Assembly: GCF_003428625.2 (NCBI RefSeq)
Contig: NZ_QVQT02000002.1
Location: 469,026-533,025 of the forward strand
Length of the DNA stretch: 64,000 nt
From: Paracidobacterium acidisoli
GTDB lineage: Bacteria > Acidobacteriota > Terriglobia > Terriglobales > Acidobacteriaceae
Reading direction: 5' to 3'
Below the pieces are notes generated by a model. That model was not told the origin of the DNA. It worked only from the letters and a program-made list of their open reading frames with translations, and did not search any database. Position 1 is the stretch's first letter. Every line of letters starts with the position of its first letter. Made by a program: the position numbers and the translations under genes. Positions 24,742 to 52,250 of this stretch are shown here, piece by piece.

Positions 24742-27700
24742 TTATTTCGAGCCACGCACATTGACCGCAAACAAGGCATGATGCGCAAGAATGAACAGCG
24801 TGCGATGATCGCTGCCGCCAAAAATAATATCAATCGGACGCTCAGGCACGTCGATGCGGCCAATCTGCCGGCCGGCAGGGTTGTAAACAAAGATTTGCCC
24901 GTTGGCGATGTACACATTGCCGGCGCCATCGACGGCGACACTTTCGCCGCCTCGTTCGGCAAAGGGCCGCAGATCGCTTAGTGTGCCATCTGCGCCAACC
25001 AGCGCACTATAAGTGCGGTCTTCCGATTCACTGCTGACGTAGACCCGATGCCCCGGCAAGGCACGAAGAAAGCCATAGCTGTCCAGATTGTCAGAGAAGC
25101 GCGTGCCGGTATAGTCCGGTGGCCCCTGCTGAAAGACGCGCGCCGCAGGCAGGAAAAGGCTGCCATCGGGAGAAACATATTCCTTTGCTTTCGGCGTCGA
25201 TACATCCTGTGCGAACATTTCGGCGAGCGTCGTATAGGTGAAGGTGCTGAAGTTGAGCTGATTCGCAAATTCTCCATTGTTCCAGTAATTGACGGGCAGC
25301 AGGGCCATCGCATCGGGATGCGGCCTCATTTCCTGCGGCGCAAGCACCGTAATCTGATCCTCCGGTGATCCGGGACGGAAAGCATACACCGTTCCCTCCG
25401 CGCCCGCGGAAGAGAGCACCAGCATATCGCCCGCCTTATCGAAGGCCAGATTCACCGGATCGAGCGGATTGTCGCGCTCGATCGTTAGCCCTTCGTCTGC
25501 CGACCAGCCATAGATGCGCTGCTGATGGTGATCGACAAAATACAGTTTGCCGGCTGCATCCACGGCCGCGCCGGAGATGGAATAAAAGCCATCCTCCAGC
25601 TTCCTGACCCGGGAATCCGGCGCGAGCACAGCAGAGGCATCGGGCGCAGGCGGCACAGCAGGAGAGGCCGGAACGTCGAGCACAGCGAACCGCCGTTCGC
25701 GCACCTCCAGATGGTGCGTCATATCCTCAATCGCATTCTCATACGGAAACTTGCTTACCCGCAGAAATGTGCCGCAGCCGTTTTCATCGCAGGTAGCAAA
25801 TCCGCTCTCGGCATTCACGAGAACATTGCGGAAGTGGATCTCTGAGGAATGATAAAGACGAACGGCTGCAGGAAATGGCGCCCGAGAGCGCGTAACGCGA
25901 TAGCCATGGTAGTTGGCGACGGTGATGTTCTTCGACCAGTCGAATTCGAGAGACAGAGCTTCGATGCTTTCGCCCGCTTCTTCCTCGGTCTGCGGAGCGT
26001 CGATATCCCAGTTCTCCACATGATCGAACTTAATTTCGTTGCGAACGTGGTGCTCGTTGGATAGCTCATACACATGGCCGGGCGTGGTTGTATCGGAGAC
26101 GTAGAATCCCGCCTGAGCAAAGGTGTCCGGCGTCCAGATATTGGCGAAGGTTCCTCCGCCGCCATGTGTCACCCATAGGCTGGGATACTGTCCGTCCCAC
26201 CTCTTATGCAGATCGGGATCGGCCGTGTGGGTGTTGTTATAAGGATTCATCCCGCTGCCGTGGCCGCCCAGCAGGCGCACATCGTCGGCAAGCGAATCGG
26301 CTCCGGCACACCACAGCACGCCCACCGCACGCGGGTTGATACCTCCGGTGAAGACTCCGAGCCCCTGAACGATGTTCGAGCCATGCTCCGGCGCATAGAT
26401 TACGGCTTTGGGCGCGCCTGTGCCCTGGTAACCCGCCGCGCTGTCAGGAAGATCGAACTGAGCCAGGTAAGGATGCAACCCGATCAGGACCGTCTCCGGT
26501 TTCAGCCTGAGTGTGTCGCTGACGACATAATGGCCGCTCGGAAAATAGAGCACGCGATGCGTATCAATCGCCTTCTGGATCGCAGCGGTGTCATCGGTCG
26601 TGCCATCTCCGATGATGCCCAGCGTATGTACATTCACCCACTCTGCGACAGGCGGCAGAGCCGGAATCGCAGGTGGCAGCGATGCGGGCATGGTGCTGAG
26701 AGCTGCAGCGTCATAGAGCATGCCGATGCTGCCGGTGCTTCCCTCCCCCGGCACAATAAGCCCGTAGTTGAAATTTCTGATCCGGTACATCATGCCTTTG
26801 CCGGGCACCTTTTTCCCGCTTTCGCGGAACTGGGCAAAGGTCGGTACATTCTTCAGAACTGCATTCTCAAATCCGATCTCCGTGAGCGGACTCTTTTCAT
26901 TGCTGATGATGACCGCGGAGCCGGATATATTCTCGAAGCGGCAATCCTTCACCCACAGCTCATCGGAATAGTGCGGATCGATATCAATAGCCGTCGGCAC
27001 ATTGCGGAATGTGTCGCGAATGAGAGTCAGCCCGGCTTCGTGTTCGCGAATCGCTGCTTCGCGCTGCCCTTCAAACGAAGAATCGATCAGCGTGAACTGC
27101 CAGGCCGGCGATGGCTTATCTGTGAGAATTCCATAGCGTCCGCCATAGAAGTGCAGATCCTCGGCCTCATTACCGACTTCGGTCAGTCCCGCCAGGCCCG
27201 AGCCGATATGAAAGTCGATATGGCTAAGCAGGGAGTGCTGCGCGACATGGAACCGGATCGCCACGGCTGCCGGATTGCCATCGCCGATTTCGAAATCGAC
27301 GTTGCTCATCGCTGAATAGAATGTGCCGGGATTGGCGTCGGCAATCGCATCGTTGGGCGGCACGCTGCCAGGAGGAGGAAACGGAATGCGGCGGCTCTGT
27401 GCATGGGGCGTACCTGGGCGTGCGCCGGCAAAGATCACCATGTCACCAATACCCTGCTGAAAGCCCGGCGTGTTGTCCGCCAGCACAAAAACCGGACGCG
27501 TTGCGCCATAGCCGAGAACGCGCACACCCGGCCAGACGTAAATCGTGCGCGTGAGCCGGTAGCGTCCTGAAGGGATGAACACAATTCCGGCGTGATCGGG
27601 TCCCTCAGCCTTGTCGATGGCGGCCTGGATGGCCGCGCTGTCGTCTGCCTGTCCATCGCCCCGCGCGCCAAAGGCCTGCGCTGTGAGATAGACCGCGCCA

Positions 27701-27804
27701 GGATCGTCGAGCCGGGTCGTGATGACGGATGCGGCCAGAGCGGCGGAAGAGAGACCTGCGAACAGCGTGGCGAGCAGCAAAATCTTTTTCATCATTGTGT
27801 TCAT
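24742..27804 (-). CDS. Secreted GH55-like double pectate-lyase-fold protein with beta-propeller tail
   Basis: This 1020-residue protein starts with a clear signal peptide (MKKILLLATLFAGLSSAALA after a short run of possible starts), so it should be exported. Two Pectate_lyase_3-type beta-helix starts are seen: FGARGDGQADDSAAIQAAID near residues 45-64, and GIIGDGTTDDTAAIQKAID near 390. Tandem right-handed helices of this kind are the fold of GH55 exo-beta-1,3-glucanases, although catalytic residues cannot be proved by eye. From about residue 720 the repeats change to NHL/SMP-30-like blades (AAGKLYFVDHHQQRIYGWS, then GAGNVYIANGQIFVYNPAG). The substrate is probably a polysaccharide. It is the last gene of a minus-strand block with a PIG-L deacetylase and a TonB receptor. 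Confidence 0.72.
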   Translation of the reverse strand: MNTMMKKILLLATLFAGLSSAALAASVITTRLDDPGAVYLTAQAFGARGDGQADDSAAIQAAIDKAEGPDHAGIVFIPSGRYRLTRTIYVWPGVRVLGYGATRPVFVLADNTPGFQQGIGDMVIFAGARPGTPHAQSRRIPFPPPGSVPPNDAIADANPGTFYSAMSNVDFEIGDGNPAAVAIRFHVAQHSLLSHIDFHIGSGLAGLTEVGNEAEDLHFYGGRYGILTDKPSPAWQFTLIDSSFEGQREAAIREHEAGLTLIRDTFRNVPTAIDIDPHYSDELWVKDCRFENISGSAVIISNEKSPLTEIGFENAVLKNVPTFAQFRESGKKVPGKGMMYRIRNFNYGLIVPGEGSTGSIGMLYDAAALSTMPASLPPAIPALPPVAEWVNVHTLGIIGDGTTDDTAAIQKAIDTHRVLYFPSGHYVVSDTLRLKPETVLIGLHPYLAQFDLPDSAAGYQGTGAPKAVIYAPEHGSNIVQGLGVFTGGINPRAVGVLWCAGADSLADDVRLLGGHGSGMNPYNNTHTADPDLHKRWDGQYPSLWVTHGGGGTFANIWTPDTFAQAGFYVSDTTTPGHVYELSNEHHVRNEIKFDHVENWDIDAPQTEEEAGESIEALSLEFDWSKNITVANYHGYRVTRSRAPFPAAVRLYHSSEIHFRNVLVNAESGFATCDENGCGTFLRVSKFPYENAIEDMTHHLEVRERRFAVLDVPASPAVPPAPDASAVLAPDSRVRKLEDGFYSISGAAVDAAGKLYFVDHHQQRIYGWSADEGLTIERDNPLDPVNLAFDKAGDMLVLSSAGAEGTVYAFRPGSPEDQITVLAPQEMRPHPDAMALLPVNYWNNGEFANQLNFSTFTYTTLAEMFAQDVSTPKAKEYVSPDGSLFLPAARVFQQGPPDYTGTRFSDNLDSYGFLRALPGHRVYVSSESEDRTYSALVGADGTLSDLRPFAERGGESVAVDGAGNVYIANGQIFVYNPAGRQIGRIDVPERPIDIIFGGSDHRTLFILAHHALFAVNVRGSK

Positions 27805-34458: not shown

Positions 34459-34488
34459 AAAATACGTTAGCGCTTACGACGTTGGCAA
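34459..34488 (-). promoter_or_regulatory. Candidate receptor promoter with LacI-type operator in the spacer
   Basis: The 529-base divergent gap between the receptor and the permease gene contains no convincing gene and becomes AT-rich. On the minus strand TTGCCA (plus 34483-34488), an 18-base spacer and TATTTT (34459-34464) form a promoter-like pair. The spacer holds CGTTAGCGCTTACG (34465-34478), a 14-base inverted repeat with one mismatched pair around AGCGCT, the centre usual for LacI-family operators. The promoter would give a leader of roughly 280 bases. Confidence 0.5.
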
Positions 34489-34698: not shown

Positions 34699-36087
34699 GT
34701 GAGCGGACCTCGCCCTCCATCGGAAATCGATCTGTCATCGCGGCATGGCTATCGCTCTGCGATGAAGCAGGGTATCGATCTTAAAGGCGCCATTTCAGCC
34801 AACGTGCTGAACATGATCGGGGTTGGTCCTTTTCTTACCATTCCTCTCGCACTGACAGCCATGGGCGGCCCTCAGGCTATGTTCGGGTGGATTCTCGGAG
34901 CACTGATCTCCCTTTGCGATGGACTGGTCTGGGCTGAGCTTGGTTCGGCCATGCCCCGATCCGGAGGCCCTTACTATTACCTTCTTGAAGCCTTCGGCCC
35001 AAACAGTCTGGGACGCCTTGTCAGCTTCCTGTTTCTCTGGCAATCGATGCTGATCGGCCCCATTTCCATCGCCTCGGGAGCCGTCGGCTTTTCCCAGTAC
35101 ACGAAATATATCGCTCCCGGTCTGCACGGCTGGCAGTTGCCCGCACTCGCCGCCCTGGTCTGCCTGCTGAATACAGTTCTGCTTCTGCGCAGAATCGAAT
35201 CCATCAACGGCCTTTCCATTCTGATCGCAGTCGTTGTCTTTGCCACCGGCGGCTGGATTCTTCTCAGCGGTGTGCTGCACTTTCACGCGGCGCTGGCGTT
35301 TGATTTTCCAGCCGGGGCTTTTCATCTTTCACACAGCTTCTGGACAGGCCTCGGAGCCGCGACCCTGATAGCCGTCTACGATTACGGCGGCTATTACAAC
35401 GTCTGCATGATTGGAGAAGAAGTACGATCACCGCGGAAGACCATTCCGCGCTCGATCCTTATCTCCATCTGCCTTGTCGCCGTTCTGTATCTCGCCATGA
35501 ATATCTCAATACTTGGCGTGATTCCCTGGCGTGAGGCAATGCATTCGGAAGCCATTGTCGCGCTCTTTATGGACCACATCTATGGCCTGATCGGAGCACG
35601 CATCGTCTCGGTTCTTATTCTTGTTGCAACCTTCGGCTCGGTCTTCGCCATTCTGCTTGGGTTCTCGCGTGTTCCCTACGCTGCCGCGGCCGATGGACAC
35701 TTCTTCTCGGTGTTCAGCAAGCTGCATCCAAAGGGGAAATACCCTGCGATCGCCGTGATCACCATGGGCACTCTCTCCGCTCTGGCATGCATCTTCAGCC
35801 TGAGCGATCTCATCAGCACCCTGATCGTGGTGCAGACGATGCTGCAGTTCGCTGCGCAGTGCATTGCCGTCATCCTCTTGCGGAAGCGCTTCAAAGACGA
35901 TCCGTCGTGCTTCCACATGCCCCTGTTTCCACTGCCGGCCATCATTGCTTTGTGCGGCTGGGGATATATCGTTATCACCAGCGGTCTTCGATATATCAGC
36001 ATCGGTCTTCTGCTGATGGCGCTGGGAATTGCTGCTTACCTTTTACGATCGTTCAAGGCGCGCGAATGGCCCTTCAGGACAGCATGA
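34699..36087 (+). CDS. APC-superfamily permease
   Basis: This 462-residue protein has about twelve membrane helices. The APC pattern is seen in helix 1 (NVLNMIGVGPFLTIPLAL), the GDLVWAEL-like acidic helix 3 region (DGLVWAELGSAMPRSGGPYYYL) and the cytoplasmic GEEVRSPRKTIPRS loop. Members import amino acids, amines or amino-acid conjugates; the E. coli fructoselysine importer FrlA belongs here. The start is GTG 34699. The stop overlaps the kinase ATG (ATGA), so it is the first gene of a coupled permease-kinase-glycosidase operon. Confidence 0.88.
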   Translation: MSGPRPPSEIDLSSRHGYRSAMKQGIDLKGAISANVLNMIGVGPFLTIPLALTAMGGPQAMFGWILGALISLCDGLVWAELGSAMPRSGGPYYYLLEAFGPNSLGRLVSFLFLWQSMLIGPISIASGAVGFSQYTKYIAPGLHGWQLPALAALVCLLNTVLLLRRIESINGLSILIAVVVFATGGWILLSGVLHFHAALAFDFPAGAFHLSHSFWTGLGAATLIAVYDYGGYYNVCMIGEEVRSPRKTIPRSILISICLVAVLYLAMNISILGVIPWREAMHSEAIVALFMDHIYGLIGARIVSVLILVATFGSVFAILLGFSRVPYAAAADGHFFSVFSKLHPKGKYPAIAVITMGTLSALACIFSLSDLISTLIVVQTMLQFAAQCIAVILLRKRFKDDPSCFHMPLFPLPAIIALCGWGYIVITSGLRYISIGLLLMALGIAAYLLRSFKAREWPFRTA

Positions 36088-36998
36088 CAAAACAATGGGA
36101 CGTTGCCGTCGCCGGTGAAATATTCGCCGATCATATCTTCGCCGGCTTTGAAAAGTGGCCGCAGCCGGGCGAAGAGCTTTTTACTGACAGCTATGCGCGT
36201 GAGGTCGGTGGAGGCGCTGCGATTACAGCCTGTGCGCTGGCACGTCTGGGACGCAGTGCAGCGGTCTTCGGCGTTATTGGGAAGGAAGACGGCTGGATTC
36301 AACATCGCTTTGCCGATTTTGGCGTAGCTTCCGATGGTCTGCGCAGTACGGAAGGTGGCACCGCAGTTACGGTAAGTATCTCCACCCGGGAAGACCGCTC
36401 TTTCTTCACCTGGCCAGGTGCGAATAAAGATCTTCGTGAGTATCTGCGCAGCCCGCAGACCAAAGTACTTCTGGAACGCGCCAGGCACGTCCACTTCGCA
36501 ATGACACTCAGCCGCCCGCTCGCGCTGGAGCTGTTGCCGCCTCTCCGCAGCGCCGGATGCACGATTTCCATCGATCCGGGGCATCATCCCGAATGGCTGA
36601 GAAATCGGGACAACTGGCAGACATGCAGTGAGTGTGATTTTTTTCTGCCCAATGAACTGGAGGGCAGAATTATGACCGGCGAACAGAGCGCAGAAAAGAT
36701 GCTCGCCGTGCTGACTGGTTCCGGCATCCGTGGAAGCGTGATCAAGCTGGGACGCGCCGGAGCTGCCATGATGACAGACGGCCTCGTCTGCCATGCTTCG
36801 GCTCCGGCGGTTGAAGCAGTGGATACCACAGGCGCGGGTGATGCCTTCGACGCCGGATTCATCGATGCATTTCTTGATGGCGCGGCTCCATCGGAAATGA
36901 TCCGCCGCGCCTGCATTTGCGGTTCCCTTTCCACACGCCGTACAGGCGCGCTTGCTGCCCTTCCCGGGCGAGAGGAGCTGAACAGATTTCATGAGTAA
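36084..36998 (+). CDS. PfkB-family carbohydrate kinase
   Basis: This 304-residue ribokinase-like enzyme phosphorylates a sugar or sugar derivative with ATP in the cytoplasm. Motifs are VGGGAAITACALARLG (41-56, substrate site), the Mg-linked N190/E193 in PNELEG, and DTTGAGDAF (247-255) with catalytic D253. The start is placed at ATG 36084 in the ATGA overlap with the permease, with AGGA nearby; an in-frame ATG at 36066 is possible. It overlaps the GH4 gene by eight bases. The permease and GH4 partners suggest it makes the 6-phosphate that GH4 requires. Confidence 0.88.
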   Translation: MTKQWDVAVAGEIFADHIFAGFEKWPQPGEELFTDSYAREVGGGAAITACALARLGRSAAVFGVIGKEDGWIQHRFADFGVASDGLRSTEGGTAVTVSISTREDRSFFTWPGANKDLREYLRSPQTKVLLERARHVHFAMTLSRPLALELLPPLRSAGCTISIDPGHHPEWLRNRDNWQTCSECDFFLPNELEGRIMTGEQSAEKMLAVLTGSGIRGSVIKLGRAGAAMMTDGLVCHASAPAVEAVDTTGAGDAFDAGFIDAFLDGAAPSEMIRRACICGSLSTRRTGALAALPGREELNRFHE

Positions 36999-38385
36999 AG
37001 CAGCCAGCAATAAAATCGCGCTGATCGGCGGAGGAGGAGTACGTACTCCACTCGTCATCTTCGGTATTCAGGAATCGGCTCAGGCCCTGCACGCCGACGA
37101 GCTGGTCCTGTTTGACCCTGATGCCGAGCGCGTCCGCATTATGGCCGATCTTGGCCGAGGCATCGTAGCTCGCGAAGGCGGAAGTCTGCGTATTCGCATT
37201 GCTGCGTCCGCTGAGGACGCCATCGCCGGCGCCGGATTTGTTCTCAGCAGCCTTCGCGTAGGCGGCATTGCCTCTCGCGCGCAGGACGAACGTATCGCTC
37301 TTGCGCATGGCTATCCTGGTCAGGAAACTACCGGCCCCGGCGGCTTTGCCATGGGCCTTCGTACGGTGAATGCATCGATCGGTTATGCGCGTCTGATGGA
37401 AAAGCACAGCCCCGACGGCTGGCTGATCAACTTCACCAATCCCGCCGGTATGATCACGCAGGCAATCTCCCATCACACCGGGGTGAAGGTTGTCGGCATC
37501 TGCGACACTCCGATTGAGTTGTTTCATCGAATCGCAACGGCACTTCAGGCGCCGCCGGAGCGCGTCCGCTGCGATTACATGGGGCTCAATCATCTGGGCT
37601 GGGTGCATCGAATCCGGCTCGATGGGAAAGATGTATTGCAGGATCTGCTTGGAGACAACCGCGCACTGGGAGAGCTCTATCCCGGCAACCTCTTTGATCC
37701 TGATTTATTGAGAAGCCTTCAGATGCTTCCCACCGAATACCTCTATTTCTATTACTGCCGCCGCCGGGCTTTGGCGAATCAGCGCGCGGCTGGCACCACA
37801 CGGGGCGAAGAAGTGGCGCGTCTGAATGAACGGCTTCTGGCTGAGCTGGCGGGATATCTGCAGTCCGGACAGATAAAAGAAGCCATCGCTGCCTATACTG
37901 CCTATCTCAATCAGCGATCAGGCTCTTATATGAAGCTGGAAGCGAGCGCAGGTTCGGCCTTTGACGAAAAAGTTGATCCGGAGCAGGATCCTTTCCGTAC
38001 GGCTACCGGCTACCATCGCATCGCGCTCGATGTTATGAATGCCTTAATCGGTGCAACACCGCGGCGAATCGTGGTCAATGTCCCCAACCGCGGCGCCATT
38101 ACAGATATCGGAGATGAGGACATCGTGGAAGTACCCTGTACGATCTCCGATAACAGCATTCAGCCCGAGGCATGCGGAGCTCTGCCCGAAGCAGCGCGTG
38201 GTCTGGTTCTCTCCGTCAAGGCCTACGAGCGCGCCGTGATTCAGGCGGCGCTGTCAGGCTCCGCATTGACCGCACGGAAGGCCATGCTGCTTTATCCGCC
38301 CATTGGAGAATGGGAGCCGTCTGAGACATTGTTGGAGGACATTCTTAAAGACAGCTCCACCAGACAGAATTTTGGTCATCCCTGA
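36991..38385 (+). CDS. GH4-family 6-phospho-glycosidase (NAD+ and metal dependent)
   Basis: This 464-residue protein has a Rossmann start (IALIGGGGVRTP, residues 9-20) and GH4 marks: GQETTGPGG (110-118), NFTNPAG (148-154), the metal-binding Cys in CDTP (171-174) and GLNHLGW (198-204). GH4 enzymes cleave 6-phospho-glycosides by oxidising C3 with NAD+, eliminating across C1-C2, and reducing again, which allows both anomers and unusual leaving groups. The sequence looks closest to 6-phospho-beta-glucosidases. There is no PTS gene in the window, so the phosphate must come from the adjacent kinase. The ATG overlaps the kinase stop by eight bases. Confidence 0.9.
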   Translation: MSKAASNKIALIGGGGVRTPLVIFGIQESAQALHADELVLFDPDAERVRIMADLGRGIVAREGGSLRIRIAASAEDAIAGAGFVLSSLRVGGIASRAQDERIALAHGYPGQETTGPGGFAMGLRTVNASIGYARLMEKHSPDGWLINFTNPAGMITQAISHHTGVKVVGICDTPIELFHRIATALQAPPERVRCDYMGLNHLGWVHRIRLDGKDVLQDLLGDNRALGELYPGNLFDPDLLRSLQMLPTEYLYFYYCRRRALANQRAAGTTRGEEVARLNERLLAELAGYLQSGQIKEAIAAYTAYLNQRSGSYMKLEASAGSAFDEKVDPEQDPFRTATGYHRIALDVMNALIGATPRRIVVNVPNRGAITDIGDEDIVEVPCTISDNSIQPEACGALPEAARGLVLSVKAYERAVIQAALSGSALTARKAMLLYPPIGEWEPSETLLEDILKDSSTRQNFGHP

Positions 38386-38522
38386 GCCGAAGGAGACTTT
38401 GATACGCACAGGATGCCCGGATTAGTTGCTGTGCTATTCTCCGGATAATTACACGAGCAAACTCCCGTTCTTAACCGCAGACTTTCGTTCAGGAGTTATT
38501 TGTTGCTGAGGGAGCATTCTCC

Positions 38523-39530
38523 ATGCCTGTTCGCCTGAAAGATATCGCCAGAGACCTTGGGGTTTCCGTCGTTACCGTCTCAAAGGTTCTGCGTGGCAGC
38601 AGCGACATCGGAGAAAAGACCCGCAACCGCGTATTGAAGCGCATGCGGGAGCTGGACTATCGGCCGAATCTTATGGCTCGCGGACTCGCCAGCGGCCGTA
38701 CCTATACGGCGGGCCTGGTTGTTCCTGACCTTGTACAACCCTATTTCGCGGAGCTTGCAAAGGCCATCAGCGGCGTTCTTCGTACTGCAGGCCGCGCGCT
38801 CATTTTGACCAGCTCTGAGGATGACCCGCAGATCGAGCATAGTGAGATCCGAACTCTCCTCTCACGCGGAGTCGATGTTTTACTGATTGCTTCCTGCCAG
38901 AGGAACCTCAAAAACTTCTACAGGCTCGGCGATCAGCACGTTCCCTATATATTGCTGGACCGCAACTTCCCGCAGCTAGCCGCGAACTTCGTGGGCATCG
39001 ACGACTTTCGCGCAGGTGAAATTGCCACCGATCATCTGCTCCAGTCCGGCCGCAGACGCATCGCCCACATCGCCGGCACACGCATTCATCCTTCTCTCGA
39101 GCGTCTGCGTGGTTATCGGCAGGCCCTTACAAACTGCAACCTGGCTCCGCCTGAAAGTTATGTGATCATGCACGATCATCTCGAGGAGAAAGGCGACGCG
39201 GTGGGCTATCGGAGCATGCAGGATCTTCTGCGCCTGAAGAAGAAGCCGGACGCGGTCTTTTGTTACAACGACCTCGCCGCCATTGGAGCCATGCAGGCAG
39301 CCGATGAAGCCGGCGTCAGAATCCCCGAAGATATCGCCTTTGTGGGCTGCGGCAACGTCAGCTATTCCACCCATCTCCGCCATCCACTTACCTCAATCGA
39401 TCAGTCGATCCCGGAACTGGGCAGGATCGCCGGCGAACTGGCTCTGTCTCTTGATCAGGATAGCGAGCAGGCCCCGCAGACAGTGTTGCTCGAGCCAAAA
39501 CTGATCGTGCGCAGCTCATCGGCACTTTGA
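38523..39530 (+). CDS. LacI-family transcriptional regulator
   Basis: This 335-residue regulator has an N-terminal helix-turn-helix (RLKDIARDLGVSVVTVSKVL, residues 4-23), the hinge helix YRPNLMARGLASG (47-59) and a periplasmic-binding-protein-like sugar domain. A GAGGGAG ribosome site lies eight bases before ATG. It follows the GH4 gene by 137 bases, probably with its own promoter. Its likely targets are the permease-kinase-GH4 operon and the divergent receptor, where a LacI-type inverted repeat is seen at 34465-34478. Confidence 0.92.
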   Translation: MPVRLKDIARDLGVSVVTVSKVLRGSSDIGEKTRNRVLKRMRELDYRPNLMARGLASGRTYTAGLVVPDLVQPYFAELAKAISGVLRTAGRALILTSSEDDPQIEHSEIRTLLSRGVDVLLIASCQRNLKNFYRLGDQHVPYILLDRNFPQLAANFVGIDDFRAGEIATDHLLQSGRRRIAHIAGTRIHPSLERLRGYRQALTNCNLAPPESYVIMHDHLEEKGDAVGYRSMQDLLRLKKKPDAVFCYNDLAAIGAMQAADEAGVRIPEDIAFVGCGNVSYSTHLRHPLTSIDQSIPELGRIAGELALSLDQDSEQAPQTVLLEPKLIVRSSSAL

Positions 39531-46401: not shown

Positions 46402-49400
46402 TCAGAACCGGAGACGTCCAATCAGAAGCACCGACCGCGGGTCCTGAGCGCCCGTGACTGTGCCAAACGTGGTGTCGGTGATGGTCATATCCAGACCGGA
46501 GAACTGCGGATGGTTAAAGGCATTGTGCGCATCCACCCGGAAGGTGAACGTTGCACGCTCTCTCAGTGGCACATCGCGCATCAGGCTGATGTCCCACACA
46601 TTCTGTCCCGGCCCGTAGAGCGCTGCACGCGGTGCATTGCCGAGCATATCCTGCGGCGTGACCTGAAAGGCTGCGGTGTTAAACCACTTCTCTCTCGTGC
46701 GGGACGATCGCGAAATATCGGGATCTCCAACTTTGGTCGCGTATTGTCCTCCGGAAAAGAGGCCGAGGGTGTTCTGCTGCGTGACGAAGTATGGATATCC
46801 CTTCTGGAACTGCGCAACGGTGCTGACCTTCCAGTGTCCGATCACCTGGGAGACAACAGGCGTCTGAGACATCCACCTGCCGCCTGCTCCAAAGGGCAGC
46901 TCATAGACCGCCGAGAGCGAAAGCCTCTGCGGAACATTCGTCATCGCTGTTCCCCATTGCGCGTGCAGGTTATACACGTTCTGAATGGGGACGGCATCTG
47001 CGCGTGCCGGAGCATCGACGTCGTCCATTGCTTTGGCCCAGGTATAAGCGGCGCGCATGGAGATACCGTTGTTCCAGCGGTGACTAAGCTGTGCAAGAAG
47101 CGCTGCATACAGAGACGCTCCGCCGTTCGTGTAATTTGTGATGGTAAGAAACTGCGGATATGGCCGAAGAGATTGAGCGTTCTTCACGCCAAAACAGCAG
47201 CCGGTGGAAGGCTGAATCTGATTGATGGGCAGCGAAACCGGCTGGTGCACGCCGTGATTGCCCTCATAATCCACCTCGGCGACCCACCCGTGACCAAGAC
47301 TCTGCTCAACGCTGAGTTGCCACTCCTGAAGATACGGGAGCACCGGATGCTGCTGCAGCTCGGCCACACTCGACGTAGGGTGAGTGAGGCTTGTGGGAAT
47401 CAACGGCAAGCCATCAGGCCCCACATTCGGTGAATAAGGCGGAACGCCCTGCGACAGCTCATAGGGAGGTGTTACTCCGTCAGAGCTCTGAAAGGTGGCA
47501 TTTACGGTTGAAGGGGATGTGAGTCCATTAGAGCCGAAACCAATGCTCGGCAGCTCGTAAACACCGTAGCCGCCGCGTACGACAGTATTCCGGAAAGGAT
47601 GATAATTGAAGCCGATGCGCGGCAGAATGCCGGTATACACATTCGCGATCAGGCTGTGCGGAGCACCGTTATAGCCGGCAAAGCGAATTCCACCCCGCAC
47701 CTGCGTCGTCGGATCGATGATATCCGGGTCGAACGTATACATGTTGTTGTGCTCTTCGGAGAAGGGTCCATCGAACTCCCAGCGCAGTCCGGCGTTCAGC
47801 GTAAGGTTCGGAGTGATTCGATAGTCGTCCTGAATGTAACCGGCAAAGTAGTTCAGGTTTTCGTGGAAGACCGTATTGGTCGTATTGATAGTCGTCGATT
47901 CCGGCAGCCCAAGCTCCAGATCAGCAAGCCCGATGCCTGACTGGCCACCGGCTGAGGTGAATGTTCCCGAAAATGTATATTTTCCGGAAAGCACGCCGGG
48001 CTCGTAATAGCTGTAGGCATAGCGCATAAATTCGCCGCCCATGGAAAGTGTGTGGTTTCTGATCTGCAGAATCAGAGCATCGTTCAGGATGTAGTGCCCG
48101 TCTCTTGTCCGGGCAAAAGAACCGGCGCCAAAATTGGCATATTCATTGGTAGTAACACTCGGAAACTGGGTCAGCGCAACGCCCTTCAGCCCAATCGAAT
48201 CCACGGCTGTCGTGTTGGGAGTGCTGAAGTTTTCTTCGGAGACATATCCGAAACGAGCCTCATTCGAGATACGCGGCGAGAAGATATGGCTCCACGAGAC
48301 CTCATAGTGGTCATCGACCCATCCATTCAGCGCCGACGTATTGGCTGCATTGGGAATGTTGTTAACCGGCTGGTTCGTCGGACCATCGCGCGAGAACTTC
48401 GCCCAGAGATGGTCATAATCAGAGGCGTTGTAATCAATGCGATCGGCATTGTAGAGATAGCTGCTGAGCGACGGCGGATTGACGCAATAGTTGAAGGTTC
48501 CATTGCTGCAGTTCGGCATGGGAAAGAACGCAGCAATGTTCATGCCGACCTGATCGAGACGATCCTTCGGGATAATATTCCCTTCGAATGGAGTACGCAC
48601 CGGTTTGCTGTTCACGATCTTCGTCGACATAGGATCGTAGATCACCGGTGTCGGCGTTCCTTCAGGAGATGGACCCGAAAAATCGCCGTTGCGTTCGGCC
48701 ACAGTTGGCACGTCCGTGTTCAGCTGAGACGCTGCATGCGTGAGCGTATCTTCCCAATCGGTAAAGAAGAAGAGATTGTGCCTGCGACCGTCAAAAAGCT
48801 TCGGAAGCAGAACCGGGCCTCCAACCGATCCACCGAAATAATTGAATACCGAGGCCGGCACAACCGCCCCATGGGCTGTGAAGTATCCCAGAGCATTCAG
48901 ATCCTGCGAGCTGTACGACTCAAATGCGGTGCCATGAAAGTTGCTGGTGCCTGACTTCGTCGTGGTCAGCACGGCGCCGCCGCCGCTCTGCCCGTACTGC
49001 GCTGAAAACGGAGATGTAAGCACCTGCAGCTCTTCGGTCGAATCAGGAGTCGGTACAAGACCGTAGGTGCCGTCGACGCCCATGTTGCTGGGAAGACCGT
49101 CGACAATCAGAGGATTGGTGACCGGCCGCCCTCCGCCCAGCGTGAGGTCATTGACGTTCGAATAATCCTGGCTGGTGCTGGAAACTCCGGCAAAGGTTTT
49201 CGTGATCAGAAACTCATTCGCCCCGTGCGTGCCGGTCACCTCAGGAAGATCGATCAGCTCGCTGCCGCTGAGCTCTCCTCCGACCTGCGGATTCGTCGTG
49301 TTAAGCGAGGATGCCGCCGCACTGACGGTGACGATCTGCGAAGTTGTGCCGATATGCAGAGACCGATCGACAACGATCTCCTGATTCAGCACGATCTTCA

Positions 49401-49749
49401 GCTCATCGGTGACCGCCTGATCGAAGCCATCCTTTGTGAAGCGCACCGTATATCCGCCTGGCTTCAAAAAAGAGACACGATAGCTGCCGCCTTTATCCGT
49501 CTGCGTTTTGTACTCTGTTCCGGTACCGTTTTCATGTACCGTCACAGAAACGCCTGGAAGAACGGCTCCACTGGGGTCCTTAATGACCCCGCTGATCGAG
49601 CCGTAAAAAGTTTGGGCATTGAGGCGGCTGCCGGAAAAAATCAGCACAACCAATAACACAGGAATCCAGGCGCATCGCAGAAACCGACGCACCGTACCGA
49701 CTTGCAGACAACTGGCTGCTAAAGAAAAAGGAAAGCGATCATCAATCAT
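46402..49749 (-). CDS. TonB-dependent receptor, Oar-like
   Basis: This 1115-residue receptor has an unusually long N-terminus; the basic RRFLR at 21-25 and hydrophobic stretch 27-40 ending LNAQ (about 45) look like the signal peptide. A CarboxypepD_reg-like domain follows (GVIKDPSGAVLPGVSVTVHE), then a plug with LIVDGLPSNMGVDG, and a barrel ending RLRF. The start has a GGGG-type site; a later start cannot be excluded. The partner GDPD gene downstream suggests uptake linked to glycerophosphodiesters, as inference. Confidence 0.9.
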   Translation of the reverse strand: MIDDRFPFSLAASCLQVGTVRRFLRCAWIPVLLVVLIFSGSRLNAQTFYGSISGVIKDPSGAVLPGVSVTVHENGTGTEYKTQTDKGGSYRVSFLKPGGYTVRFTKDGFDQAVTDELKIVLNQEIVVDRSLHIGTTSQIVTVSAAASSLNTTNPQVGGELSGSELIDLPEVTGTHGANEFLITKTFAGVSSTSQDYSNVNDLTLGGGRPVTNPLIVDGLPSNMGVDGTYGLVPTPDSTEELQVLTSPFSAQYGQSGGGAVLTTTKSGTSNFHGTAFESYSSQDLNALGYFTAHGAVVPASVFNYFGGSVGGPVLLPKLFDGRRHNLFFFTDWEDTLTHAASQLNTDVPTVAERNGDFSGPSPEGTPTPVIYDPMSTKIVNSKPVRTPFEGNIIPKDRLDQVGMNIAAFFPMPNCSNGTFNYCVNPPSLSSYLYNADRIDYNASDYDHLWAKFSRDGPTNQPVNNIPNAANTSALNGWVDDHYEVSWSHIFSPRISNEARFGYVSEENFSTPNTTAVDSIGLKGVALTQFPSVTTNEYANFGAGSFARTRDGHYILNDALILQIRNHTLSMGGEFMRYAYSYYEPGVLSGKYTFSGTFTSAGGQSGIGLADLELGLPESTTINTTNTVFHENLNYFAGYIQDDYRITPNLTLNAGLRWEFDGPFSEEHNNMYTFDPDIIDPTTQVRGGIRFAGYNGAPHSLIANVYTGILPRIGFNYHPFRNTVVRGGYGVYELPSIGFGSNGLTSPSTVNATFQSSDGVTPPYELSQGVPPYSPNVGPDGLPLIPTSLTHPTSSVAELQQHPVLPYLQEWQLSVEQSLGHGWVAEVDYEGNHGVHQPVSLPINQIQPSTGCCFGVKNAQSLRPYPQFLTITNYTNGGASLYAALLAQLSHRWNNGISMRAAYTWAKAMDDVDAPARADAVPIQNVYNLHAQWGTAMTNVPQRLSLSAVYELPFGAGGRWMSQTPVVSQVIGHWKVSTVAQFQKGYPYFVTQQNTLGLFSGGQYATKVGDPDISRSSRTREKWFNTAAFQVTPQDMLGNAPRAALYGPGQNVWDISLMRDVPLRERATFTFRVDAHNAFNHPQFSGLDMTITDTTFGTVTGAQDPRSVLLIGRLRF

Positions 49750-49964
49750 GGAAACCCCAAAGGTTTAAAGGTCCGTTTTCAAATGGAGCATGCTGTGGGC
49801 TGGTTTTCTGTCTGATCCAGGAACCAGCAAGCGATGATCGAACCGTAACAAGAAGTTGTTAATAAATAACAAACATTCTCGATTAAATGATAAAAATGAT
49901 CATAAGCAGCTTACAAAATCGGATATGACGCTCATTCCCCCAGACGTAAATATCTGCGCAAATC

Positions 49965-49981
49965 ATATAAATCATTGATAT
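49965..49981. promoter_or_regulatory. Palindromic candidate operator before the DeoR gene
   Basis: A 17-base inverted repeat, ATATAAATCATTGATAT, with one mismatched pair, lies 26 bases before the deoR-type start codon. The surrounding 250-base divergent gap (49,750-50,006) is AT-rich with further TGAT/ATCA motifs near 49,887-49,900. It suits autoregulation and control of the divergent receptor. Confidence 0.45.
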
Positions 49982-50006
49982 ATTTGCTGTTTTAGGGAAG
50001 ATACTC

Positions 50007-50768
50007 ATGAACGATGTGACAGAACGATCCCGGCTCAGCTCGATCGTTGAAATGTTAAAAGTGAACACGACTGCCTCTATCGCGGAGATTGCAGAGACCT
50101 TCCGTGTCTCCCAGATGACCATCCGGCGCGACCTTCAGAAGCTTGTGGAGGCGGGACAGGTGATCCGCATTCCCGGTGGAGCGCGCATCGAGTACTGGCG
50201 CGGTGCGGAGCGAACCTTCTTTGAGCGGCTGGAGAAGATGTCGCATGCCAAGAGCAGTATCGGCAGCGCCGCCTCTGCGCTGGTGCGTGATGGCGAATCG
50301 GTCGTGCTCGATTCCGGCACCACCACGCTGCACGTCGCCCGGGCGCTGCGCACCAGGCGCAATGTTGTGGTCTTTACCTTTTCCCTGACCGTGCTGGAAG
50401 AACTGACTTCAGCCGAGCATGTGCGCGTGGAGCTTACCGGAGGAGTCTACCGGCCAAGCAGCCATGATCTGATCGGGCAGGCCGTCGCGAAAAGCCTGTC
50501 CTCTATCTATGCCGACACCGTGATCTTCGGCGCAGCCGCAGTTTCCTTCACCCGGGGAGTCATGGTTCACGATCCCGATGCACAGTGCGAGATGCTGAAT
50601 GCGGGCAAGCGAAAGGTTCTTGTAGTGGACAGCAGCAAGATCGGAACCGAAGCCACCTACCGCCTCTGCGGTATTGAGGACTGCGATCTGATCCTGACCG
50701 ACAACGGCATTTCGCCCGAAACCCTGTCGCGGCTCAGGCAGACGACCCAGGTGCAGGTCGCGGAATAA
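50007..50768 (+). CDS. DeoR/GlpR-family transcriptional regulator
   Basis: This 253-residue repressor has an N-terminal helix-turn-helix (SIAEIAETFRVSQMTIRRDL, about residues 24-43) and the DeoR sensor domain with the phosphosugar-binding DSGTTTLHVARAL loop and the D-SK motif VVDSSKIG. Effectors of this family are phosphorylated sugars. GGGAAG precedes the ATG. It is 48 bases ahead of the GHMP kinase, so the kinase product could be its effector. It is divergent from the receptor-GDPD pair. Confidence 0.92.
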   Translation: MNDVTERSRLSSIVEMLKVNTTASIAEIAETFRVSQMTIRRDLQKLVEAGQVIRIPGGARIEYWRGAERTFFERLEKMSHAKSSIGSAASALVRDGESVVLDSGTTTLHVARALRTRRNVVVFTFSLTVLEELTSAEHVRVELTGGVYRPSSHDLIGQAVAKSLSSIYADTVIFGAAAVSFTRGVMVHDPDAQCEMLNAGKRKVLVVDSSKIGTEATYRLCGIEDCDLILTDNGISPETLSRLRQTTQVQVAE

Positions 50769-50816
50769 ATCTTTGTTAATACTGTATGGATGACGCTCAG
50801 ATAGCCTGCAGAGAGG

Positions 50817-52250
50817 ATGTCTCATTCTGTCAGGAGCCGGCCGGAAGCGGGCTTATTCGACGAGCAGGTCGTTGACGGCATTGCCGCGCATGGCTTCTTT
50901 GCGCCTGCAAAGCCGATTTATGTAGCCCGTGCGCCTGGCCGTCTCGACGTCATGGGAGGCAATGTCGACTATACCGGCGGGCTGGTGCTGCAAAGTCTCC
51001 TGCGTGAATCGACATGGGCCGCGGTACAACGCCGGGCAGACAAGACCATCCGCATCCTCAATCCTGGCGCCTCGCGATTTGGATGGGAGCCATACTTCGA
51101 GCTCTGCGTAGACGACCTCAGCAGTCCGCGGGATCTGCATCGGCTCAGTGAACAAAGCGATTCCCTGCGCTGGAGCTGTTATGTGCTCGGCGCGCTGTAT
51201 TTTCTGAAGGAGCATCACAACTGGGGCGACAGTGGTGGCGCAGATCTCTTCCTCGCATCCGATCTGCCGCCGAATAAAGGCGTGAGCTCGTCGGCGGCGC
51301 TTGAGATAGCGGTGCTCAGGGCAGCCTCAGCCGCATACGGAATCACTCTCGATGGCGTTGCACTCGCAACAGCCGGCCAATGGACGGAAAACGTAGCCGT
51401 CGGCGCAGCATGCGGCATTATGGACCAGGCTGCTATCGTTCTGGGCCGGAAAAATCATCTTCTTCCTCTGCTCTGCCAGCCCTGCCAGCCGTTTACGCCT
51501 GTGACTCTGCCCGAGGGTATCTGCATCTGGGGGATTGATTCCATGGTCTCCCGCTCCACAACCGGTGCCGCCTATGAAACAGCACGCGCAGCCGCCTTCA
51601 TGGGATACAGCCTGATCTGCCGGAAAGATAACCTCGACGTGGTTCCGGATGCGGACTCGCAGATACCCAGATATACAGACCGGCGGTGGAAGGGCTATCT
51701 CTCCAATATTTCTCCATCTGTATTTCGCGCTGAGTATGAACGCTGGCTTCCTGAGCGGCTCAGTGGAGACGAATTTCTGGAGCACGCGGGACCGCACGTC
51801 GATCCATTCACAGGAATCTCTCCGGGCACGGAATATCCGGTTCGTGCGGCCGTTCGTTACGCCGTGGAAGAGCACTTTCGTGTGCAGACCGTATATGCTC
51901 TGCTCAGAACGATCAGCCGCGATAATTTCGAGGATGTGATCCATCTCGTCGGAGAGATCTTCCGCCAGTCCCACATTGCATACGCCGAATGCGGACTTGG
52001 CTCCGATGCCTGCGATGAGCTGGTCTCCCTTGCGCTGCACGCAGGCTTTCCTGGAGCAAAAATGACAGGGGGAGGAGCAGGCGGTGTAGTGGCTGTGCTT
52101 GGCCGGTGCGAGGACAGGCCGCTGCTTCATTCCATCGCGCTGGAATATGCCAGCCGGCGACAGTCAGTGCCTTATATCTTCGAAGGCAGCTCTGACGGTA
52201 CCGACCTGTCCGGAGTCTGCACCATGCACCTGCCTTCGCTCCAAAGTTAG
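50817..52250 (+). CDS. GHMP sugar kinase resembling the kinase domain of plant L-arabinokinase
   Basis: This 477-residue kinase has all GHMP motifs: APGRLDVMGG (39-48), the ATP loop PPNKGVSSSAALE (151-163), catalytic-site GIMDQ (200-204) and KMTGGGAGG (415-423). Galactokinases have GRVNLIGEHTDY in motif 1; here it is GRLDVMGGNVDYTGG. As I recall the Arabidopsis ARA1 C-terminal domain, it shares GRLDVMGG, the VGA-CG-MDQ stretch, LCQP, WGIDS and FEGSS, all seen here. That suggests a kinase making a sugar-1-phosphate, perhaps from L-arabinose or another sugar. GAGAGG precedes ATG. Annotating it simply as galactokinase would be too specific. Confidence 0.85.
   Translation: MSHSVRSRPEAGLFDEQVVDGIAAHGFFAPAKPIYVARAPGRLDVMGGNVDYTGGLVLQSLLRESTWAAVQRRADKTIRILNPGASRFGWEPYFELCVDDLSSPRDLHRLSEQSDSLRWSCYVLGALYFLKEHHNWGDSGGADLFLASDLPPNKGVSSSAALEIAVLRAASAAYGITLDGVALATAGQWTENVAVGAACGIMDQAAIVLGRKNHLLPLLCQPCQPFTPVTLPEGICIWGIDSMVSRSTTGAAYETARAAAFMGYSLICRKDNLDVVPDADSQIPRYTDRRWKGYLSNISPSVFRAEYERWLPERLSGDEFLEHAGPHVDPFTGISPGTEYPVRAAVRYAVEEHFRVQTVYALLRTISRDNFEDVIHLVGEIFRQSHIAYAECGLGSDACDELVSLALHAGFPGAKMTGGGAGGVVAVLGRCEDRPLLHSIALEYASRRQSVPYIFEGSSDGTDLSGVCTMHLPSLQS

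Follow-up and report, generated by a model that had tools for sequence, protein, structure and literature searches.

A window of 64,000 nt from Paracidobacterium acidisoli (contig NZ_QVQT02000002.1, positions 469,026–533,025), the whole stretch of DNA analysed here, carries a cassette of genes for a TonB-type outer-membrane receptor, a large PIG-L deacetylase, an APC-family permease, a PfkB-family sugar kinase and a GH4 glycosidase. On balance, and with little more than even confidence, this cassette is taken to encode a pathway that salvages an inositol glycoside of an amino sugar, (N-acyl-)glucosaminyl-myo-inositol (GlcN-Ins where the amine is free) being the likeliest substrate. This reading starts from the gene order of the cassette, its conservation in relatives, its linkage to inositol catabolism and a palindrome shared with an inositol gene, all of which were observed.

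Linkage of the cassette to inositol catabolism

Two genome samples were searched for GH4 relatives at E ≤ 1e-30, giving 13 genomes with a relative out of 297 sampled across the phylum and 28 out of 300 sampled within the family; the 28 of the family sample and seven more of the phylum sample make up the 35 Acidobacteriota GH4 genomes considered below (G and L numbers denote genomes and stretches). Inositol as the aglycone is well supported by the gene neighbourhoods, since the myo-inositol oxygenase (MIOX) gene lies within the operon of one relative and iol genes flank the cassette in others and in sphingomonads. In G291 the order APC, PfkB, MIOX (E = 4.8e-112), GH4 runs on one strand; in G342 and G429 MIOX lies directly 3' of GH4 on the same strand, and in four genomes of one genus (G241, G281, G479 and G523) it occupies the opposite strand with its start 0.8–2.7 kb from that of GH4. 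The GH4-PfkB pair of L072 is flanked by iolD (936 bits, cut-off 715) and iolB (292 bits, cut-off 205), together with iolG-like (152 bits, cut-off 355) and iolE-like (201 bits, cut-off 290) genes that fall below their cut-offs. Additional iol-gene matches occur in L065, L066 and L071; L026 holds iolB, L067 holds iolG, and iolD lies at the margin of L029.

Outside the phylum, GH4 relatives were found in one Asticcacaulis metagenome-assembled genome (MAG) and on two sphingomonad plasmids (L077 and L078). On both plasmids iolG, iolC, iolD and iolE adjoin a GH92 gene, a TonB-type receptor, an RpiR-type regulator and APC-PfkB-GH4, and one has iolB too, the N. capsulatum plasmid record giving no IolB match. 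The L017 stretch holds no iol gene, and IolB is encoded on another contig of that genome. A search of 385 genomes of the class of the Asticcacaulis MAG with the sphingomonad GH4 (E ≤ 1e-110) matched the MAG alone (1/385), which leaves three loci (L017, L077 and L078) as the evidence from proteobacteria. The GH4 tree has two main clades, and the sphingomonad and Asticcacaulis rows nest within the clade of the family.

In 14 of the 35 genomes, from nine genera, GH4 has MIOX or IolB no more than 20 kb away, against 0.27 expected by random placement, and one or the other scores over its cut-off in 32 of the 35. Among genomes of the family sample, 27/28 with GH4 have MIOX or IolB, versus 106/272 others (Fisher p = 1e-9, a test that ignores kinship); the corresponding counts are 17/28 versus 81/272 for MIOX alone and 10/28 versus 28/272 for IolB alone. 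In no GH4 genome of this sample do MIOX and IolB both exceed their cut-offs, though they do in G291, which comes from the phylum sample. Inositol-linked members occur in both GH4 clades and each label requires a minimum of three gains or losses; the labels are also clustered on the tree (12 of 500 shuffles were as low).

The window itself gave no MIOX or iol match. The MIOX gene of the genome lies at C1:369467-370189, with a sugar-transporter-like gene and an alpha-L-rhamnosidase among the genes around it, and the window lies on C8. An exact CGTTAGCGGTAACG stands 25 nt before the MIOX ATG (L075:9294-9307), and a one-mismatch palindrome precedes the transporter gene. Exact copies of CGTTAnCGnTAACG were found in 10 of 37 stretches (642 kb), always 21–117 nt before the frame of the cassette TonB-type receptor and nowhere else in these stretches. 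Because MIOX carries the same LacI-type palindrome exactly, the shared site would tie the window cassette to inositol in its own genome. The consensus was picked after the sites had been seen, and in a control with permuted palindromes it ranks second (57 matches at up to two mismatches; mean 20.3, best 66), so that the weight rests on the exact copies, many of them from close relatives. A first pattern, GTTAGCGCTTAC, showed no enrichment in the window, with 5 matches where 2.68 were expected and 12 of 100 shuffles giving as many. LacI paralogues often share such sites, and thus the LacI protein of the window need not be the common regulator; a LacI homologue is present in only 8 of 35 related stretches and is not a constant part of the cassette.

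Enzymes of the cassette and the predicted substrate

The grouping was followed in 38 related stretches, of which 35 come from GH4 genomes and the others are L077, L078 and L079 (G475, in which a fragment of GH4 lies at the end of a contig, was left out). PfkB adjoins GH4 in 38/38, with MIOX between them in L025, and an APC homologue lies within 31/38, which argues that the PfkB-GH4-APC grouping is not due to chance. The stretches without an APC homologue are L019, L067, L070, L071, L072, L074 and L079, L070 and L071 being short contigs. In 12 stretches (L020–L024, L056 and L059–L064) the order TonB-type receptor, PIG-L, APC, PfkB, GH4 runs on one strand with the receptor gene first; the receptor-PIG-L half is divergent in the window and in L054, its sister. 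At least 19 of the 28 family genomes encode a PIG-L homologue no more than 17 kb from GH4, and 23 of 35 related stretches hold one. By this recurring arrangement PIG-L and the receptor are assigned to the cassette.

Table 1. Features of the cassette in the window (positions counted from the first letter of the window)
Feature	Position	Strand	Support and remarks
Large PIG-L (LmbE/Mca-type) deacetylase, 946 aa	27912..30752	-	PF02585 3.7e-12; signal-peptide-like N-terminus (by eye)
TonB-dependent receptor-like outer-membrane protein, OMP_b-brl_4 + carboxypeptidase-regulatory domain, 1120 aa	30807..34169	-	PF25183 2.5e-219
Candidate LacI-family operator CGTTAGCGCTTACG	34465..34478		Between the divergent receptor and APC genes; one mismatch to CGTTAnCGnTAACG
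APC-family permease, 462 aa	34699..36087	+	PF13520 1.1e-42; proposed importer of free-amine glycoside
PfkB/ribokinase-family sugar kinase, 304 aa	36084..36998	+	PF00294 1.9e-36; proposed glycoside 6-kinase
GH4 glycosidase, 464 aa	36991..38385	+	PF02056 2.3e-39, PF11975 2.8e-45
LacI-family regulator, 335 aa	38523..39530	+	PF00356, PF13377

A preliminary description of positions 34699–39530 had named the APC, PfkB, GH4 and LacI genes, whose families and positions were confirmed by profile matches, and had passed over the divergent receptor and PIG-L genes next to them. It had also claimed that transporter, kinase and GH4 are translationally coupled, which is plausible in view of the stop-to-start overlaps: the APC stop and PfkB start overlap as ATGA (36084–36087), and the GH4 start lies 8 nt within the 3' end of PfkB. 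Its statement that there is no phosphotransferase system (PTS) agrees with a profile search of the whole genome for the EIIC part only, the one PTS part searched, in which the single match reached 19.6 bits (curated cut-off 30.7). An EIIC-like gene over the cut-off was found in one of nine GH4 genomes searched (G342:C39:30160-30951), and therefore PTS is not wholly absent from the GH4-carrying group.

The GH4 gene is the sole copy in the 5.0-Mb genome and its two Pfam domains score 135.3 bits (cut-off 23.2) and 155.3 bits (cut-off 24.1). The protein carries GGGGVRTP, which we take to be the nucleotide-binding start of GH4, R96..DE...GQETxG, C171-D172 and N200-H201, C171 and H201 presumably being the metal-binding Cys and His. 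The R..DE...GQETxG signature is present in 39/39 GH4 rows and in ChbF, is shared with solved 6-phospho-glycosidases (all five solved sequences compared have it), and is absent from MelA, the sole non-phospho control; it supports the prediction that the window GH4 acts on a 6-phospho-glycoside. C-D-T-P and N-H-L-G-W are found in 37/39 rows, L019 and L079 differing, and the DTTGAGD of PfkB is invariant across five aligned rows. The anomer was not called from D172, since C-D-x-P is like that of the 6wbt row (and, we assume, of GlvA), yet the overall similarity is to beta enzymes. GlvA and BglT are described as needing the 6-phosphate (PMC10628242).

Glucosamine as the sugar is moderately supported by analogy, from the PIG-L partner and from the work of the PIG-L-family enzymes Mca and MshB on GlcN-Ins amides: MshB and Mca are described as acting on GlcNAc-Ins and mycothiol conjugates, with conjugate cleavage giving GlcN-Ins (PMC4360819). 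The window protein belongs to the PIG-L superfamily (PF02585, 47.3 bits, cut-off 28.2), shares the metal motifs AHPDDE and GHGNH with the other aligned row (L016) and is apparently secreted. LnmX, its only solved relative by sequence (7.6e-5), was of no help, and a domain structure predicted from the two-row alignment (mean predicted local distance difference test score, pLDDT, of 33.5) was not used.

Several findings weigh against a glucosaminyl-inositol substrate. The co-occurrence statistics ignore kinship, several of the linked genomes are close relatives, and three of the 35 GH4 genomes (G403, G107 and G191) have no MIOX or IolB over cut-off. The site at 34465–34478 is a candidate LacI site, and with mismatches allowed the palindrome is not significantly commoner than in shuffled sequence, with 3 matches in the window (against 1.43; 15 of 100 shuffles gave as many) and 9 across L075 (against 5.13; 12 of 200 shuffles gave as many). 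GlcN-Ins is alpha-linked, and for that reason the overall similarity of GH4, which among solved relatives is highest to 6-phospho-beta-glucosidases, counts against it. The NagB-like genes of the genome reach 135 bits against a cut-off of 237, and such genes were under cut-off in 8 of 9 genomes searched. No PIG-L was found in 12 of 35 related stretches, some of them short or cut by a contig end (L017, L019, L025, L030, L055, L057, L058, L066, L070, L071, L072 and L073; in L066 it is present further out than the stretch), nor is PIG-L annotated in the stretches of L077 or L078, and PIG-L homologues at E ≤ 1e-150 are common (153/300 genomes). The best NCBIfam model for the window PIG-L is Mca (TIGR03446; 39.0 bits, below the cut-off of 277), and as another large PIG-L encoded in the genome reaches 36.9 bits on it, the likeness to Mca appears generic and the match, which counts little, was dropped as strong support.

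This second large PIG-L gene (G000:C1:491425-494172; L076:9252-12179) lies next to genes for an acyltransferase-3 and a further APC permease (L076:6667-8142) and may belong to a related system without GH4. In G217, a second PIG-L copy with 57% to that of the window lies directly 3' of GH4 (L020:10763-13696), so that PIG-L stands on both sides of the cassette. The G291 stretch, without PIG-L, carries beta-lactamase-family and amidohydrolase genes ahead of APC-PfkB-MIOX-GH4 (L025:14349-16569), which perhaps provide a different deacylating step. In the window, a gene for a 1020-aa pectate-lyase/rhamnogalacturonase-like protein with an SGL-like end (24742–27804, minus strand) follows PIG-L by 107 nt on the same strand and may belong to its transcript, and the region 46402–52250 appears to be a sugar locus of its own, holding a further TonB-type receptor gene along with genes for a DeoR regulator and a galactokinase-like kinase of the GHMP type. 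On the sphingomonad plasmid of L077, Qat anti-phage genes, of which qatC and qatD are annotated, neighbour the cassette at a distance of a few kb (L077:13683-18299).

Known systems and alternative substrates

In the frl system of E. coli, the APC permease FrlA imports fructoselysine and the PfkB kinase FrlD makes the 6-phosphate before FrlB cleaves it. The preliminary description had likened the cassette to frl and had seen in it a PTS-free, kinase-dependent route that delivers a 6-phospho-glycoside to GH4, with glycosylated amino acids or amino-sugar conjugates among the possible substrates. The route to GH4 stands as a prediction. The likeness to frl holds for the broad families, an APC permease and a PfkB kinase giving a 6-phosphate ahead of cleavage, and goes no further: the permease scores 86.7 bits on the FrlA model NF008466 (cut-off 800) and the kinase 41.4 bits on the FrlD model NF007321 (cut-off 247), and unlike frl the cassette has GH4 in place of FrlB and other partners. 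Membership of frl is ruled out by these scores and partners. A scan that covered ten proteins of the window around the cassette gave no FrlB-type deglycase (the rest of the genome was not searched). With inositol genes as the recurring partners and no finding that points to glycosylated amino acids, a frl-like route for such compounds is highly improbable, and the guess of amino-sugar conjugates has fared better, the neighbourhoods pointing to an inositol glycoside, probably of glucosamine.

The chb operon of E. coli (chitobiose) is closer in chemistry, having a deacetylase, an amino-sugar 6-phospho-glycoside, cleavage by GH4 and the common GH4 signature. It differs in using a PTS, whereas in the cassette the phosphate would come from PfkB and no EIIC scores over cut-off; its deacetylase is ChbG and not PIG-L, and it is the cassette that partners inositol genes. 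By gene content and profile scores, the cassette is thus placed in neither frl nor chb. A PTS-free counterpart of chb, in which chitobiose or a piece of the N-glycan core is deacetylated by PIG-L, phosphorylated and cleaved by GH4, would be in keeping with ChbF, a GH4 enzyme with the same signature that is encoded next to a deacetylase by annotation, and with the PNGase A-like gene by L018 and L055, the GH92, GH2 and GH43-like genes by L017 and the GH130-like gene by L021. Such substrates are ranked lower because of the MIOX/iol linkage: this scheme leaves the inositol genes beside or within the operon unexplained, as well as the palindrome at MIOX, and it is considered improbable. The same linkage bears on a general 6-phospho-glucosidase route that would serve aryl or alkyl glucosides, in which proximity to inositol genes would be incidental. 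The best solved relatives of GH4 are indeed 6-phospho-beta-glucosidases, and GlvA and BglT are described as taking both anomers given a good leaving group (PMC10628242); however, linkage to inositol genes recurs in both main GH4 clades with repeated gains or losses of each label and lies far above the 0.27 genomes expected, which makes an incidental association distinctly improbable.

More weight, though still as an unlikely case, is given to an inositol glycoside without an amino group (such as galactinol, mannosyl- or glucosyl-inositol), with PIG-L serving another purpose or deacylating decorated glycans. The linkage to inositol is firmer than that to PIG-L, which is not annotated near the sphingomonad sets and was not found in a third of the related stretches (12/35), and GH92 family genes stand beside L017, L077 and L078. 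On the other hand, PIG-L is close to GH4 in most GH4 genomes of the family and runs in series with the operon on one strand in 12 stretches, and an amino-acid-type permease would fit a charged amine better than a neutral sugar.

Other systems share parts of the proposed glucosaminyl-inositol route. Mycothiol metabolism uses PIG-L-family enzymes (Mca and MshB) on GlcN-Ins amides according to the same account (PMC4360819); unlike Mca, the window PIG-L has a signal-like N-terminus, a length of 946 aa and genes for uptake and cleavage joined to it. The MIOX route and the iol pathway are physically joined to the cassette in relatives and start from free inositol, whereas the cassette would supply inositol from a glycoside. 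A Sinorhizobium set (L079:9998-16586) also has adjacent GH4 and PfkB genes and differs in GH4 identity (37.5%), an ABC importer, a GntR regulator nearby and CDGA instead of CDTP, with no inositol gene annotated within 10 kb. S. meliloti SM_b21217, which may be the L079 kinase, is described as an inferred glucosamine kinase (PMC11378808), and Smb21217 and its neighbours as predicted for galactosamine use (PMC4961836). L079 is a distant parallel.

Proposed pathway and its implications

From the families and neighbourhoods we infer which sugar is used, where it is phosphorylated, how the steps follow one another, and every activity. The TonB-type receptor would take the compound across the outer membrane, and PIG-L, outside the inner membrane, would strip the N-acyl group (acetyl, or acetyl-cysteine if mycothiol is the source). 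The APC permease would then bring in the free-amine pseudodisaccharide, PfkB would phosphorylate O6 of the sugar, and GH4, by NAD-dependent oxidation-elimination, would release glucosamine-6-phosphate and inositol. Glucosamine-6-phosphate could possibly enter cell-wall synthesis. Inositol would be converted to glucuronate via MIOX, encoded in this genome on another contig with a similar operator, or would pass through the iol pathway in relatives.

The glucosamine-inositol core is carried by GPI (glycosylphosphatidylinositol) anchors, the glucosamine of which is unacetylated. The sphingomonad sets, with GH92 present and PIG-L not annotated, would for this reason suit GPI-type glycans as a source. 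Mycothiol is described as carrying the same core (PMC4360819). A tentative extension, to which we give well under even confidence, is that Acidobacteriota consume mycothiol or its conjugates released by actinobacteria, by means of a secreted Mca-like PIG-L, the APC permease and PfkB-GH4, yielding glucosamine-6-phosphate and inositol, and that sphingomonads turn the same core to GPI-type glycans once these are trimmed by alpha-mannosidases. In searches of openly licensed PMC papers, judged by title and abstract opening, no report appeared of GlcN-Ins as a nutrient or of a matching GH4 pathway. If the proposed pathway is correct, it would provide a function for GH4 genes now annotated as 6-phospho-beta-glucosidase or hypothetical, a pseudodisaccharide substrate for an APC "amino acid" permease, and one catabolic pathway for the glucosaminyl-inositol unit common to mycothiol and GPI-type glycans.

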